Assembly (NCBI RefSeq): GCF_002224265.1
Contig: NZ_CP012881.1
Location: 372,001 to 436,000 of the forward strand
From: Vibrio vulnificus NBRC 15645 = ATCC 27562
GTDB lineage: Bacteria; Pseudomonadota; Gammaproteobacteria; Enterobacterales; Vibrionaceae
Reading direction: 5' to 3'
Length of the DNA stretch: 64,000 bases
Position 1 is the stretch's first letter. Every line of letters begins with the position of its first letter. A program made the translations under genes and the position numbers. Below are positions 17,366 to 28,327 of the stretch, one piece after another. The notes beneath the pieces were generated by a model. It saw only the letters and a program-made list of their open reading frames with translations, did not search any database and was not told the origin of the DNA.

Positions 17366-18355
17366 TCATCCGCCTATTGAAGCCAAATGTGGCGTCATGC
17401 CGGTGTTGCCATCGTTTAAGAAATGGCTGACAGATTTGGTTTGCAGTTCCGCTTGAATTCGTTCAATAAGTGCTGACTCCTGAGAGTCCTGTTGGAGCAA
17501 ATCTCTAAGCTCAACACCTCGGTCACCAAATAGGCATAAGTGCAGTTTGCCTTTCGCAGAAACTCGTAAGCGGTTACAGCTCGCACAAAAGTCTTTTTCG
17601 TAAGGCATGATCAAACCAATCTCACCTTGATAGTCAGGGTGAACGAACACTTGCGCAGGGCCATCATTAGCCGCCTTCACTTTCAGTAACCAGCCATTTG
17701 CGATCAGATGATTGCGAATCGCCACACCAGAGACATGATGTTGTTGGAATAATGTATCCATCTCACCCGTTTGCATCAGTTCGATGAAGCGCAATTGGAT
17801 GGGACGATGCTTAATCCAGTGCAGAAAAGCAGGTAACTCGTTGTGGTTGAGATCTTTCATCAACACAACGTTGACTTTCACTTGTTCAAAACCCACTTCG
17901 AACGCACGATCAATACCCGACATCACTTGGTGAAATTTATTCTCGCCGGTGATTTGATGGAACATACGTGGGTCAAGGCTATCCACGCTGACATTAACTT
18001 GGTTTAAACCGGCTTCTTTCCATTCTCCAATGTGCTTTTCCATTCGATAGCCATTGGTGGTAGTGGCAACTCGTTTAATGCCTTGAGTTGAAGCGACCGT
18101 ATGGATAATGTCAGTAAAATCTTTGCGCAGACTTGGCTCTCCGCCCGTAATGCGCACTTTACTTGTGCCACAGTCAGCAAAAGCCTTAACGACTCGGCGG
18201 ATTTCAGCGAGGTTTAAAAAAGACGAGTTTTTCTGCCCCGAAGGTTGGTAGCCATCAGGTAAACAGTAAGTACATTTGAAATTACACACGTCCGTCACGG
18301 ACAGACGCAAGTAATAGAATTTGCGGTGGAATCTATCTTCGAATTGTTGCGCCAC
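17366..18355 (-). CDS. moaA: GTP 3',8-cyclase MoaA (radical SAM)
   Basis: First enzyme of molybdenum cofactor synthesis. The radical-SAM cysteines are in [15 protein letters not shown] (near residue 24), the GE-like SAM motif is [11 protein letters not shown], and the C-terminal cluster cysteines are in [23 protein letters not shown]. The C-terminus ends in the required Gly-Gly. I chose the GTG at 18355, which has GGAAAGG 6 bases upstream and gives 329 residues, as in E. coli. A TTG five codons earlier is in frame but would remove the ribosome site. The long structured leader suggests riboswitch control. Confidence 0.96.
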
Positions 18356-18359
18356 GGAA

Positions 18360-18525
18360 CACCTTTCCAAACACGGGAGGCGTAGTCATTTCCAAATACG
18401 CCCTTGTGACCTTTTGCCACTGGCTTAAGCCGCGTATTATTCAACACTTGATGTCGAATAACTTAGCAAGTTAAGCTCGGAGTTATGGCAACCCTTGACC
18501 CTATTGGTCAAATGGTAGCTTTGCC
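18360..18525 (-). promoter_or_regulatory. Structured moaA leader, probable Moco riboswitch
   Basis: Reading the minus strand, at least five hairpins follow one another before the moaA ribosome site: GGCAA...TTGCC enclosing TTGACC/GGTCAA; TAACTT/AAGTTA; an 8-bp ATTCGACA/TGTTGAAT; GTGGC/GTCAC; and GGCGTA/TACGCC. The leader ends with CGCCTCCCGTGTTTGGAAAGG just before the GTG start, so a CCT segment could mask the GGAAAGG ribosome site. The position upstream of moaABCDE is that of the Moco RNA motif described in gamma-proteobacteria. The identity rests on position and structure; I have not scored it against the motif model. Confidence 0.68.
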
Positions 18526-21541: not shown

Positions 21542-21634
21542 TGACCCCTCGGGTCACCTAGCCAACTGACGTTGTTAGTGAACCTAGTGTTCACAATTGA
21601 TAGCCAATAGTGAAATGACTGTTGGCTTTTTTTT
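21542..21634 (+). ncRNA. qrr1: Qrr1 quorum-regulatory small RNA
   Basis: Hfq-dependent sRNA made at low cell density; Qrr sRNAs pair with the LuxR/HapR-type master-regulator, luxO and aphA messages. The 5' hairpin TGACCC.CTC.GGGTCA is followed by the invariant Qrr core CCTAGCCAACTGACGTTGTT and the GTTAGTGAAC segment. The RNA ends in an 8-bp terminator stem (GCCAATAG / CTGTTGGC) and eight T residues. Length is about 93 nt, as for other Qrr1. It sits between luxO (divergent) and uvrB (convergent), the usual Vibrio location. Other qrr copies, if present, are outside the window. Confidence 0.96.
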
Positions 21635-21701
21635 GTCTGCAATAATGACAGTCAATGTTCTTCAAAAATGACTTGTTAATAGTAGCCATTAAACTCGGAT
21701 G

Positions 21702-23732
21702 TTAGCTGTTAGCGATAAACTGCTGACGCAACTTTTCAATTTCATCACGCTTCTGCGCGGCCAACTCAAATTCCAAATTCTGAGCGTGTTTGTACATTTG
21801 CGCTTCCAGTTTTGTGATTTCTTTTTCCAATTGCTGTGGTGTCAACACATTATAGGACAGCGATGGTTCAGCCACTTTCGACAATGGCACCGTTTTGCTC
21901 ACTTTCTGCTTGCGGGATTTAGTAATATCGCCCAGCTCCATAATATCTTTGATATTACGCTTCAAGGCTTGAGGCTGAATGCCTATTTTTTCATTGTACG
22001 CTTGCTGTTTCTCACGGCGTCGTTCCGTTTCATCCATCGCTTTCTTCATCGATTTGGTGATGGAATCTGCATACAAGATCGCTTTACCATGGAGGTTACG
22101 GGCTGCACGGCCAATGGTCTGAATCAATGAGCGCTCTGAACGTAAAAAGCCTTCTTTGTCGGCATCGAGAATCGCAACCAAAGACACTTCAGGCATGTCG
22201 AGACCCTCGCGTAACAAGTTAATCCCCACCAACACATCGAACTCCCCTAGCCTCAAGTCACGAATGATCTCCACTCGTTCAACCGTGTCGATATCAGAGT
22301 GTAAGTAACGCACTTTCACATCGTGCTCGTGCAAGTATTCAGTTAGGTCTTCCGCCATACGTTTGGTCAGTGTTGTCACTAACACTCGTTCATCTTTCAC
22401 TGCGCGAATGCGGATCTCAGAAAGCAGATCATCCACTTGAGTCGCCACTGGTCGCACTTCCAGTACAGGATCGAGCAGACCAGTCGGACGCACCACTTGG
22501 TCAGCAATTTCGCCCGCACTTTTCTCTAGCTCGTAATTGCCCGGGGTGGCTGAAACGAAAATAGTTTGTGGCGCAAGAGCTTCGAACTCTTCAAATTTCA
22601 ATGGTCGATTGTCCAATGCTGAAGGCAAACGGAAACCATATTCAACCAAGGTCTCTTTCCGCGAGCGGTCACCTTTATACATTGCGCCAATTTGTGGCAC
22701 GGTCACGTGAGATTCATCGATGATCAACAAACCATCGTGTGGTAAGTAGTCAAATAATGTTGGAGGCGGCTCACCTTCTGCTCGACCACTGAGGTAACGC
22801 GAGTAGTTTTCAATGCCAGAGCAGAATCCCAGCTCATTCATCATTTCAATATCGAACTGGGTACGTTGACTAATACGTTGCTCTTCCAACAATTTATTAT
22901 TGTCACGCAAGTAAGTTTGTCGCTCACGCAGCTCTTGCTTGATGTTTTCAATCGCCTGCAGAATACGCTCTCGTGGCGTGACGTAGTGAGTCTTAGGGTA
23001 AATGGTGAAGCGGGGTAAATCGCGTTGTTTGACCACTCCGGTCAGTGGGTCAAACACACTGATGCAGTCGATCTCATCATCAAACATCTCGATGCGTACC
23101 GCATCTTGGTCCGACTCAGCCGGAAAAACGTCGATGACCTCTCCGCGCACGCGAAATTGGCCTCGCTCAAAAGCAATATCGTTACGACTGTATTGCAACT
23201 CAGCCAAACGGCGCAGTATGTCGCGTTGATCCATCACATCACCACGGCGTATATGCAGCATCATTTGCAGGTAAGCTTCGGGATCACCCAAACCATAAAT
23301 AGCCGAAACAGAGGCGACGATAATGGCGTCTTTTCGCTCCAATAACGCTTTGGTGGCAGATAAACGCATTTGCTCGATATGTGCGTTGACCGATGAGTCC
23401 TTCTCTATAAAAGTGTCAGTGGTTGGCACATAGGCTTCAGGTTGGTAATAATCGTAGTAAGAGACAAAATATTCGACCGCGTTATTTGGAAAAAACGCTT
23501 TCATCTCACCGTAAAGTTGGGCGGCAAGGGTTTTGTTTGGCGCAAGTAGAATTGCAGGACGTTGCGCTTGAGCAATCACATTCGCCAAGGTAAATGTTTT
23601 ACCGGATCCCGTCACTCCGAGTAAGGTTTGGTGAGCCAAACCAGCATCCAACCCTTCTGTCAGTTGTTTGATCGCCGTTGGTTGATCTCCCGATGGCGCA
23701 TAGTCAGAAACCAGATCGTAAAGTTTGCTCAT
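21702..23732 (-). CDS. uvrB: Excinuclease ABC subunit B
   Basis: DNA-damage-verifying helicase-like subunit of nucleotide excision repair; loaded by UvrA and then binds UvrC. The 676-residue protein has Walker [16 protein letters not shown] (near residue 38), the beta-hairpin region [16 protein letters not shown] motif [13 protein letters not shown], motif [11 protein letters not shown], and the C-terminal UVR domain ([24 protein letters not shown]). The ATG at 23732 follows an AGAGGA site; four extra upstream codons begin with GTG and overlap that site. A near-consensus LexA box lies 30 bases upstream, so it is likely SOS-induced. Confidence 0.97.
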
Positions 23733-23762
23733 TTTTCCTCTCACTACAGCACAACGTAAAAA

Positions 23763-23778
23763 CTGTATAAATATACAC
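23763..23778 (-). promoter_or_regulatory. LexA (SOS) box of uvrB
   Basis: The sequence CTGT-ATAAATAT-ACAC matches the LexA consensus CTGT-N8-ACAG in all but the last base, with the AT-rich centre typical of strong boxes. It is 30 bases upstream of the uvrB start. E. coli uvrB is also LexA-regulated. Confidence 0.75.
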
Positions 23779-24035
23779 TCCCACCCCTCATAAGAACAGT
23801 TGCAATTTAGGCATACAACACAACTTTTAGTCAGCCAAACGAATCAGGCGACAGTGACCACTTTTATTGTTGAAGAGAGTTAACCATTTCATGACATTTT
23901 TCTGGCTTATCAATTTCAACTCTGATATCCTCCTCCGCCCAATCATTGCTCTATCAGCAAAAAAGACGTTTTTGTCATCCACATCTTTTCCCCATTTTTT
24001 GTTTTTTTCGTTCATTCCAGCCTAAATCAGAAAAA

Positions 24036-24201
24036 TTATCCACAAGCTCTATAAATGCCAATTCCTAATAAAAACCTTTCAAATTCAATATTTAAAAAGA
24101 AATACCATACTTTAAAATAATTGAGCACTTACTCTAGTTCGTGTCTGTTTTTATTTTGCTCAAGTTTCACTAACACACTTATCCACAAAATTGGTGGATA
24201 A
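24036..24201. promoter_or_regulatory. DnaA-box cluster, candidate DARS1-like or DnaA-titration site
   Basis: Two exact DnaA boxes TTATCCACA are on the plus strand at 24036-24044 and 24179-24187. A third, inverted box (TTATCCACC on the minus strand) is at 24193-24201, five bases from the second, so these two face each other. A weaker TCATCCACA lies at 23975-23983. E. coli carries its DARS1 element, which regenerates ATP-DnaA, in the region just upstream of uvrB, the same relative position. The boxes are seen directly; the function is inferred. Confidence 0.55.
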
Positions 24202-24287
24202 GTAAAGGCAGGCCAATAAAGAAAAGGGATGCAGAAAAGTAAAGCACTTTTTTTACAGTTTCTTGGCATTTTGTCTCATTATTATTA

Positions 24288-24316
24288 TTGACACACCCAA
24301 ACCTGCTGAGTAAGAT
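24288..24316 (+). promoter_or_regulatory. Sigma-70 promoter of tRNA-Asn with GC-rich discriminator
   Basis: A perfect TTGACA (24288-24293) is separated by 17 bases from TAAGAT (24311-24316). It is followed by GCGTCCCGC, a GC-rich discriminator typical of stringently controlled stable-RNA promoters. Transcription should start near 24323, about 20 bases before the tRNA. Confidence 0.85.
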
Positions 24317-24341
24317 GCGTCCCGCTTTTAAGCGAAGCAAT

Positions 24342-24417
24342 TCCTCCTTAGCTCAGTCGGTAGAGCGACGGACTGTTAATCCGCAGGTCGCTGGTTCGAG
24401 CCCAGCAGGAGGAGCCA
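24342..24417 (+). tRNA. tRNA-Asn (anticodon GTT)
   Basis: A 76-base tRNA. The acceptor stem is TCCTCCT / AGGAGGA with discriminator G and an encoded CCA. The D-arm (AGCTCAGTCGGTAGAGC), the anticodon loop CTGTTAA with GTT at 24375-24377, and the T-arm GGTTCGAGCC are all intact. It is a single gene with its own promoter and terminator. Confidence 0.97.
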
Positions 24418-24612: not shown

Positions 24613-25191
24613 ATGACCGAATATATTTTGTTGTTGATTGGCACCGTCCTCGTAAACAACTTTGTACTGGTGAAGTTTCTCGGATTGTGTCCCTTCATGG
24701 GCGTGTCAAAAAAATTGGAAACCGCAATTGGTATGGGCTTGGCAACGACCTTTGTCCTTACTATGGCCTCCGTGTGCGCTTATCTTGTTGAAAGCTACAT
24801 TCTTGAGCCATTGCACATCGAATACCTACGAACCATGAGCTTTATTTTGGTGATTGCAGTGGTGGTCCAGTTTACGGAAATGGTGGTTCACAAGACCAGC
24901 CCAACCCTCTATCGCCTGCTGGGTATTTTTCTACCTTTGATTACCACCAACTGTGCCGTGTTAGGGGTTGCTCTACTGAATATCAATGAAAACCACTCGT
25001 TTGTAGAATCCATCATCTATGGTTTTGGTGCGGCGGTTGGTTTTTCTTTGGTACTGATTCTGTTTGCTTCGATGCGTGAGCGCATTTCTGCAGCGGATGT
25101 GCCCGTGCCTTTTAAAGGGGCTTCCATTGCGATGATTACTGCAGGATTAATGTCGCTAGCGTTTATGGGCTTTACGGGGTTGGTGAAATAA
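24613..25191 (+). CDS. rsxA: Electron transport complex subunit RsxA (RnfA)
   Basis: Six-helix inner-membrane subunit of the Rnf/Rsx ferredoxin:NAD oxidoreductase complex. In enterics the complex re-reduces SoxR; in vibrios an ion-pumping role is also considered. The 192-residue protein starts at ATG 24613 ([24 protein letters not shown]) and shows [11 protein letters not shown] and [15 protein letters not shown], whose Cys residues may hold a membrane Fe-S cluster. In-frame codons upstream run back into tRNA-terminator territory and are not expected to be used. It is the first gene of rsxABCDGE. Confidence 0.96.
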
Positions 25192-25801: not shown

Positions 25802-28327
25802 ATGTTGTCTTTAATTGAACAAATTCGTACAGGCGCGCTTTGGGATTTTCCAGGTGGTGTTCATCCTGCGGAAAACAAACGCCAGTCAAACCAGCAGCCT
25901 TTGGTGCACGCAGCGCTAGCCAATGAGATTGTGTTGCCGCTCAAACAACACATCGGCAAACCGGGAAACATCTTGGTCAACGTAGGCGATCACGTCTTAA
26001 AAGGGCAATTACTCACCCAATCGAATGCCGGTTTTACACTTCCAATTCACGCCTCGACTTCCGGAACCATAACGGCCATTGAAACACGCACAGTGGCGCA
26101 CCCTTCTGGTTTGAGCGAAATGTGCGTGGTGATCACGCCAGATGGCCAAGATACATGGTGTGAAAAACAACCTGTCGTCGATTATTCACAACAAAACAGT
26201 GACTATCTTTTGGATGTGATTCGCATGGCGGGCATTTCCGGAATGGGAGGCGCAGGCTTTCCGACCGCGAAAAAAATCCAATCTGGCTTAGGCCGAACAG
26301 AAATTTTGATTGTCAACGCAGCAGAATGTGAACCGTACATCACCGCAGACGACAAGCTTTTGCAAGAACACGCGGAAGAGGTTCTACAAGGTATCGAAAT
26401 TGTAGAACACATTTTGCAGCCTAAACTGACCATCATCGGAATTGAAGATAACAAGCCCGAAGCAATTAAAGCCCTTGAATCCGCCGCACAAAATAAAGAC
26501 ATCGTTATTCGCGTTATCCCCACCAAGTACCCCTCCGGTGGTGAAAAGCAGCTGATTAAGGTTCTAACAAATAAAGAAGTTCCCGCGGGCGGTATTCCTG
26601 CCGATATTGGTATCCTTGTGCAAAATGTGGGATCGCTGTACGCGATCAAACGCGCGGTGATCGATGGCGAACCAATGGTCAATCGAGTCGTTACCTTAAC
26701 GGGTAACACCTTCGAGACACCACGTAACGTTTGGGTACCGCTGGGCACGCCAGTCCATGCTTTATTAGAGCAATTTGGCTATCAAGCAGACAAAAAACTG
26801 CCACGCTTGATTATGGGCGGGCCGATGATGGGCTTTAGCCTTCCTCATGCAAACGTTCCGATCACCAAAACGTCCAACTGTATTTTGGCTCCAACTCGCA
26901 AAGAGATTTCTCCAGCGGGTTACGAAATGGAATGCATTCGCTGCGGCGCATGCGCTGAAGCTTGTCCTGCTTCACTGCTTCCTCAGCAGCTACAATGGCA
27001 CGCGAAAGCCGAAGAGTTCGACAAGTGTGAAGAGCTAAACTTAAAAGATTGTATCGAATGTGGCGCTTGTGCCTTTGTGTGTCCAAGTGAAATCCCGCTT
27101 GTCAGCTATTATCGTCAAGCCAAAGCCGAAATTCGAACGCGCGCGCAAGAAGCTGACGCAGCAGAACGTGCCAAGCTTCGCTTTGAAGAGAAAAAGGCGC
27201 GCATGGAGCGTGAGAAAGAAGAACGCGAGAATCGCTTTAAGAAAGCCGCGGAAGATCGCCGTAAGGAAATGAAATCCACCGGAGGCGACGACGCCATTGC
27301 CGCCGCTATCGCTCGTGTTAAAGCGCAAAAAACTCAAGATAGCGAGCAAACACCAAGCGTTAAACCGGCAGTGGCTGCTGCTATTGCCAAAGCAAAAGCC
27401 AAACAAGCCGCCGCTGCTGACTCCGGTTCGTCTGAACCAGACAATTCAGAAATGGTGAAGTTACGCGAAGAACGTAAGCGTCTTGCTCGCGAGCGAAAAG
27501 CAGAGAAAGAGCAATCTACAATCCCAGACTCTCAAGAGCAAGGGGATAAGAAATCTGCGGTCGCCGCCGCCATTGCAAGAGCAAAAGAGAAAAGAGCGCA
27601 GCAACCACCACTTGCTTCATCCGAATCATCGGCAGAGGAACCTGAAGATAAGAAAGCGGCTGTAGCTGCGGCAATTGCTCGCGCCAAAGCACGAAAAGCG
27701 CAGCAAACAGGCGAGCCTGCACCTGAGCAAAATCGCGAAGAATCGCAAGTCGCAGATGACGATCCTAAGAAAACGGCCGTCGCTGCGGCAATTGCTCGCG
27801 CCAAAGCGCGAAAAGCGCAGCAAACGGACGAGCCTGCACCTGAGCAAAACCGCGAAGAATCGCAAGTCGCAGATGACGATCCTAAGAAAGCGGCCGTCGC
27901 TGCTGCAATTGCTCGTGCCAAAGCACGAAAATCGCAGCAAGCAGGCGAGCCAGCACCTGAGCAAAACCGCGAAGAATTGCAACCAGCAGAAGACGATCCT
28001 AAAAAAGCGGCCGTCGCTGCAGCAATTGCTCGTGCCAAAGCACGAAAAGCGCAGCAAGCAGGCGAGCCAGCACCTGAGCAAAACCGCGAAGAATCGCAAC
28101 CAGCAGATGACGATCCTAAAAAAGCGGCCGTCACTGCAGCGATTGCGCGTGCCAAAGCACGAAAAGCGCAGCAAACTGACAAGCCTGCACCTGAGCAAAA
28201 TCGCGAAGAATTGCAACCAGCAGAAGACGATCCGAAGAAAGCGGCCGTCGCCGCGGCGATTGCTCGTGCCAAAGCGCGTAAAGCTCAACAAGCAGAACAA
28301 AAACAAAATACTGAGGAGAACGAGTAA
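25802..28327 (+). CDS. rsxC: Electron transport complex subunit RsxC (RnfC) with long repeat tail
   Basis: NADH/FMN-binding peripheral subunit that passes electrons through Fe-S clusters. The conserved core (residues 1-440) has [39 protein letters not shown] and two [4Fe-4S] motifs, [12 protein letters not shown] (near 378) and [12 protein letters not shown] (near 419). The C-terminus, about 400 residues, is a low-complexity basic/acidic region containing five near-identical 39-residue repeats built on '[13 protein letters not shown]' plus 'PAPEQNREE'. Total length is 841 residues, longer than most RnfC. The tail probably forms extended helices. The stop overlaps rsxD by one base. Confidence 0.95.
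27650..28300 (+). repeat. 117-bp tandem repeats in the rsxC tail
   Basis: Five in-frame units of 117 bp begin at 27650, 27767, 27884, 28001 and 28118, followed by a partial unit from 28235. Each encodes a variant of [19 protein letters not shown] plus [19 protein letters not shown]. More diverged copies of the 'AAIARAK' element lie upstream (27290-27640). High nucleotide identity suggests recent expansion and possible copy-number variation between strains. Confidence 0.95.

Follow-up and report, generated by a model that had tools for sequence, protein, structure and literature searches.

In E. coli, the DARS1 locus upstream of uvrB converts ADP-DnaA to ATP-DnaA, and the genome of Vibrio vulnificus NBRC 15645 raises the question of whether a cluster of DnaA boxes upstream of its own uvrB gene is the counterpart of that locus. 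The cluster lies within a stretch of 64,000 nucleotides (contig NZ_CP012881.1, positions 372,001 to 436,000), which we call the window. A sequence-only reading of the window had proposed a candidate Vibrio DARS1 here, and this proposal is supported by the sequence and layout of the boxes, the gene neighbourhood, the position on the chromosome arm, and the conservation in relatives. On these grounds, the element is very probably the Vibrio orthologue of E. coli DARS1. The reasons that had been given for the proposal hold up in part: there are indeed DnaA boxes near uvrB, but the defining trait is a head-to-head pair with a 5-bp gap, and the other boxes are extras.

A head-to-head pair of DnaA boxes with the layout of DARS1

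The window sequence and a pattern scan both confirm the four boxes named in the sequence-only reading, which had included neither the 5-bp head-to-head geometry nor the weak third box at 24167-24175 (Table 1). The core of the element is the head-to-head pair at 24179-24201, TTATCCACA-AAATT-GGTGGATAA, which has zero mismatches, and it is this pair, rather than two exact boxes 143 bp apart, that is the decisive feature. The order of the boxes at the core is III-3 bp-II-5 bp-I, with box I opposed to box II. The region had also been called gene-free, which is right except for a 62-aa frame (23827-24015) that overlaps the box at 23975 and does not reach the core; this frame is probably not a gene.

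Table 1. Features of the uvrB-side locus and of related elements in the same genome. Positions without a contig prefix are those of the window.
Feature	Position	Strand	Description
uvrB	21702..23732	-	NCBIfam UvrB, 1090.7 bits; start placed 4 codons into the listed ORF, at an ATG
LexA-box-like site	23763..23778	.	CTGTATAAATATACAC; pattern match just upstream of uvrB
Accessory DnaA box	23975..23983	+	TCATCCACA; 204 bp from core; place not conserved
Accessory DnaA box	24036..24044	+	TTATCCACA, exact; 143 bp from core; place not conserved
Weak DnaA box III	24167..24175	+	TCACTAACA; 3 mismatches to TTWTNCACA; 3 bp ahead of box II
DnaA box II	24179..24187	+	TTATCCACA, exact; position matches box II of E. 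coli DARS1
DnaA box I	24193..24201	-	TTATCCACC; opposed to box II, gap 5 bp; E. coli has TTATCCACT at equal spacing
tRNA-Asn (GTT)	24342..24417	+	promoter-like TTGACA-17-TAAGAT at 24288-24316
rsxA	24613..25191	+	NCBIfam RsxA, 363.8 bits; first gene of the rsx (rnf) cluster
DARS2 core	C1:984593-984627 (L004)		upstream of mutH; TTCTTCACA-AAG-TTATTCACA-GAAAA-GGTGAATAA
Site B	C1:214384-214406 (L003, 3385-3407)		perfect head-to-head pair between formate/nitrite transporter and UPF0014 genes
Chromosome-2 element	C2:1335780-1335814 (L120, 4781-4815)		complete DARS-type core beyond the end of an FtsX/MacB-type permease gene

E. coli DARS1, also upstream of uvrB, reads TTATCCACA-GGAAT-AGTGGATAA, and its strand relative to that gene is the one seen for the window pair. 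Like the window element, it has an exact box II, an opposed box I across a 5-bp gap, and a box III at 3 bp. The two elements also lie at similar distances from uvrB (about 434 and 384 bp) and at similar positions on the chromosome arm (0.66 in E. coli and 0.67 in the window genome); in the 15 genomes for which this position was computed, of 25 in which mnmG was located, the element lies at 0.58-0.74 of the arm from mnmG (ori1). The window element differs from E. coli DARS1 in its spacer letters, in its weaker box III, and in the places of its accessory boxes, and tRNA-Asn and rsxA stand where E. coli has bioD. The traits of DARS1 that are found at the window locus are head-to-head boxes I and II in III-3-II-5-I spacing (with a weak box III), an intergenic location upstream of uvrB, a mid-arm position, and conservation in relatives.

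A passage of PMC5742627 describes DARS1 and DARS2 as having three equally spaced boxes, with box I opposed to boxes II and III, and a passage of PMC10380432 describes the head-to-head arrangement as essential and box III as stimulatory. ChIP-seq in E. coli, as reported in part of PMC11317965, finds DnaA at the DARS1 double box TAATACACAtggTTATCCACA, which corresponds to box III-3 bp-box II. If the window element works like its E. coli counterpart, the ADP-DnaA molecules bound at its boxes I and II would make contact through their AAA+ domains, and this contact would lead to release of ADP, whereupon apo-DnaA would depart and take up ATP. The regained ATP-DnaA would aid the next initiation at ori1, and box III would reinforce the assembly.

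The weakness of box III in the window is a point against assigning the element to DARS1, since its 3 mismatches place it in the lowest class, to which 5/30 Vibrio loci belong; 23/30 loci have 2 mismatches and 2/30 have 1. These 30 loci are one per genome, nearly all chosen as uvrB-type by their spacer letters from the listed places. When box III offsets on that side of the core were scored on both strands against TTWTNCACA, the mean mismatch across the loci was lowest at a gap of 3 (2.1, the next best being 3.1). Judged by its letters, box III is genuine in register, yet weak.

A uvrB-side DARS-like locus is already known in V. cholerae, and the locus itself is thus not new: the review PMC6090056 cites Fujimitsu 2009, in the part available, for DARS-like sequences at the same places, including near uvrB, in V. 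cholerae. The uvrB-side sequence of V. cholerae is apparently the same locus as that in the window. The datA locus, at which DnaA-ATP is hydrolyzed, is likewise a DnaA-box cluster in non-coding DNA, but it is set apart by its description in a passage of PMC5742627, which gives it an IHF site and another set of boxes.

Frequency and geometry of DnaA boxes in the genome

The window contains 28 DnaA-box sites at no more than one mismatch, compared to 14.4 expected, and 0/100 shuffled windows reach 28. In the whole 5.0-Mb genome, the exact 9-mer is present in 59 copies, compared to 25 for the reversed pattern. The sequence-only reading had expected a perfect 9-mer once per 130 kb, an estimate that the genome count replaces with about one per 85 kb. 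Two exact boxes lie no more than 200 bp apart at five places in the genome, namely the window locus, upstream of mutH, next to mnmG, C1:214384, and C1:1760000; the exact-box pair adjoining mnmG is presumably oriC1. The head-to-head pair has a sole match in the window when up to 3 mismatches are allowed, and shuffled windows contain on average 0.13 such matches, with a match present in 13/100.

Across Vibrio, the exact pair, TTATCCAC-N7-GTGGATAA, is found in 147/148 genomes and the reversed pattern in 2/148. The single miss is a 73%-complete genome, and every good-quality genome has the pair (143/143). By our own table count, exactly three exact pairs are present in 124/148 Vibrio genomes; this three-pair set, common to most of them, is new here. 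When the gap of the head-to-head pair was left free (up to 28 bp), 39 of the 61 pairs in 13 Vibrio genomes had a gap of 5 bp by hand count, and the remaining pairs had gaps of 10 bp (10 pairs), 21 bp (10 pairs), 9 bp (1 pair), and 13 bp (1 pair). The 10-bp-gap pair is found in 10/13 Vibrio genomes; in the window genome, two exact boxes lie head-to-head with a gap of 10 bp at C1:1760000-1760027 (L006).

These counts bear on whether the cluster only sequesters DnaA. Passive titration requires no fixed 5-bp head-to-head gap, which so many of the 61 pairs nevertheless have, and the accessory boxes differ in position; we consider it very unlikely to be the whole explanation, even though exact boxes are enriched genome-wide, titration by chromosomal boxes is argued for E. 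coli in part of PMC12371093, and some further same-strand box lies 40-240 bp towards uvrB in 27/42 listed loci (hand count).

Conservation of the element beside uvrB

The element lies roughly 250-610 bp upstream of uvrB in 30/30 Vibrio loci. Conservation of the boxes across Vibrio had been put forward as a check on the proposal, and it extends to the core pair, its gap, and its orientation, but not to the accessory boxes, which shift position. A conserved layout made up of the boxes at 24036 and 23975 was accordingly ruled out, as their positions vary between species, and comparison of the sequences marks these boxes as lineage-specific extras.

UvrB loci were compared using the best 80 of 595 UvrB-encoding stretches, of which 23 have the pair at no more than one mismatch within 3 kb upstream of uvrB. 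An upstream range of 1200 bp misses loci at which a MATE-family gene separates the pair from uvrB, and the 3-kb range recovers them. All 23 positive loci fall within the first 25 table rows (L040-L064), the exceptions there being L052 and L062, and none of the other 55 loci has the pair (0/55), four of the 55 having less than 450 bp of upstream sequence. A point against the DARS1 reading is the absence of the pair from four of the first 27 named loci, which are L052 (Prodigiosinella), L062 and L066 (Ursidibacter), and L065 (an Enterobacterales MAG).

Family-wide, the exact pair is present in 250/296 genomes but in only 8/13 genera, and its absence from 5/13 sampled genera is a further point against; at one mismatch, 34/34 picked genomes from 13 genera hold two to four pairs. 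uvrB lies 300-520 bp from the pair in three genera of the family (L244, L247, and L248) and about 4.3 kb from it in L249 (G161). In G157 and G182, two genomes of one sister genus, uvrB was not found within about 3.5 kb of any pair examined (2 of the 2 in G157 and 3 of the 4 in G182), which, like the distance in G161, also counts against the reading.

Maintenance of the element without an adjacent uvrB

An element placed so regularly upstream of uvrB could be an operator through which DnaA, together with LexA, represses uvrB, and nothing else. In E. coli, DnaA and LexA do repress uvrB, and mutation of a box raises uvrBp3 activity, as described in part of PMC6015884. By analogy, repression of uvrB by DnaA and LexA may also occur in Vibrio, because the window has a LexA-like box at 23763-23778, just upstream of uvrB. 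A uvrB operator would be expected to be kept only where uvrB is adjacent, however, and two sets of loci depart from this expectation. At five loci (L051, a Colwellia MAG; L053, Cognaticolwellia; L060, Alteromonas; L061, an uncultured gammaproteobacterium; and L064, Arsukibacterium), the pair lies 1.67-2.05 kb upstream of uvrB and a MATE-family gene intervenes in 5/5, assigned by Pfam for L051 and L053 and by 50-58% identity to the L051 protein for the other three.

The second set consists of two genomes of the genus Vibrio, 1.0 and 1.1 Mb in size (G026 and G124, completeness 99). A UvrB profile search of these genomes gave best matches of 48.5 and 57.1 bits, compared to a cut-off of 750 and a score of 1078 for the window genome, and these matches are parts of open frames 1158 and 1175 aa long. 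Both genomes nonetheless keep a DARS1-type element, box III flank included, adjoining rsxA, with plsX occupying the former uvrB side. The cores are TCATTAACA-CAG-TTATGCACA-ATTTT-TGTGGATAA in G026 and TCATCAACA-TAG-TTATGCACA-ATTTT-TGTGGATAA in G124, and their box II, TTATGCACA, fits TTWTNCACA. Since the element is kept with a MATE-family gene between it and uvrB, or without a UvrB above the cut-off, these sequences argue that it is maintained for a reason other than uvrB. We therefore regard an operator for uvrB alone as unlikely; DnaA control of uvrB may be a second role of the DARS1-type element, but it cannot account for retention of the element in all lineages. Lineages in which uvrB was naturally lost or displaced allow the upkeep of DARS1 to be told apart from the control of uvrB, which overlapping sites make difficult in E. 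coli.

The same reduced genomes bear on whether the boxes are an operator or promoter element for the genes to the right, tRNA-Asn or rsxA. Although rsxA remains beside the element in both, no tRNA was found between the element and rsxA in either one, the E. coli neighbour on that side is bioD, and the window tRNA-Asn is preceded by a promoter-like site of its own, which lies 87 bp downstream from the core. A right-hand operator is therefore highly improbable. In addition to the tRNA-Asn site, the promoter scan of 23700-24345 returned two weaker promoter-like matches.

It is hardly credible that the palindrome acts as an RNA hairpin or terminator rather than as a DnaA site. As RNA, the window palindrome folds with -16.1 kcal/mol (z -2.1), and the chromosome-2 element of the window genome folds with -33.5 kcal/mol (z -8.5), but a scan of 23700-24345 found no terminator-like site. 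Furthermore, the box letters are conserved across the order beyond what mere pairing requires, and a hairpin does not explain why a third box lies 3 bp away on one side only.

DARS2 and site B

DARS2, which lies upstream of mutH in E. coli and likewise in Vibrio, has the same core layout as the window element, and the DARS2-type core upstream of mutH in E. coli K-12 has a spacing equal to that of the DARS1 core. V. cholerae is among the species compared for DARS2 in a figure legend of PMC8682772, a passage of which also states that DARS2 requires IHF and Fis.

The window genome has two further exact pairs, one at site B and one on contig C2. Site B was considered as DARS2 and ruled out, mutH being at C1:985051, and no box III was seen there. 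Among 16 distinct places in relatives (18 loci minus two repeats, with most stretches extending only 0.8 kb each way), site B is accompanied by the transporter gene in 13, by both neighbouring genes in 10, and by neither in 3. Only two pairs, even at one mismatch, are present in four normal-sized Vibrio genomes (G069, G072, G074, and G078), and site B is the missing pair in the three of these with places listed.

A DARS-type element on chromosome 2

Contig C2 is called chromosome 2 because it carries the cluster of ATGATCA repeats that marks ori2. The element on it has the form TTATCCACA-5-(N)GTGGATAA-3-box III in 30 Vibrio loci, each from a different genome. Its box III starts with TTATCC in 30/30 loci and is stronger than that of DARS1. 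The element follows the FtsX/MacB-type permease gene at a distance of at most about 350 bp in 30/30 loci, and an FAD oxidoreductase gene comes after it in 29/30. Four Vibrio genomes with only two exact pairs carry it at the same place with one mismatch. A full core with a TTATCC box III was found in 8/9 Vibrio genomes and 0/139 others of the order, a sample that includes no non-Vibrio genus of the family; sister-genus loci L226 and L227 carry the full TTATCC core beside an oxidoreductase gene. In the reduced genomes G026 and G124 (L235 and L236), a chromosome-2-type element adjoins rplT-infC, and in G026 it is on one contig with the DARS1-type element. An operator for a neighbouring gene is unlikely here, since the oxidoreductase gene is missing at locus L124 and the element lies by rplT in the reduced genomes. 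The strong RNA hairpin in the window genome may reflect a terminator.

The median distance of the chromosome-2 element from ori2 is 0.96 of the half-circle, and 18/21 genomes have a value of at least 0.85, the exceptions being G054 (0.39), G010 (0.54), and G003 (0.785). Distances were obtained for 21/25 genomes, four being omitted for a split contig or missing length, and the genomes are related, such that the counts are not independent. In the window genome, the element lies across from ori2, with a dif-like site 16 kb away. A pattern search found such a site on chromosome 2 in 7 genomes, at 16-103 kb from the element, and the pattern had no match at all in 15/27 genomes searched.

A near-terminus pair with a stronger third box on chromosome 2 is new here; a search of the open-licence literature, mostly titles and the starts of abstracts, found no report of a DARS-like element on chromosome 2 of Vibrio, and no word starting with 'DARS' occurs in the available parts of PMC5854411, PMC8826520, PMC11066055, and PMC11711613. 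We tentatively suggest, while considering it doubtful, that this element functions as a DARS and plays a part in timing, through which chromosome 2 reports to the start of chromosome 1. Being copied last, it would cause DnaA reactivation to rise as chromosome 2 is completed, and completion of chromosome 2 would thereby feed back on initiation at chromosome 1, in the direction opposite to the known crtS signal. The crtS site has itself been likened to DARS2, in part of PMC6139311, and the passages seen of the literature on Vibrio replication control describe no link that runs from chromosome 2 to chromosome 1. If the chromosome-2 element does recharge DnaA, it would be a concrete, deletable candidate for such a signal.

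Other features of the window

A Qrr small RNA is located at 21542-21635, between a luxO-like gene and uvrB, and a molybdenum cofactor riboswitch is located at 18344-18494, upstream of a moaA-like gene. On the other side of the element, the rsxC-like gene (27500-28300) has a long C-terminal series of near-identical repeats.
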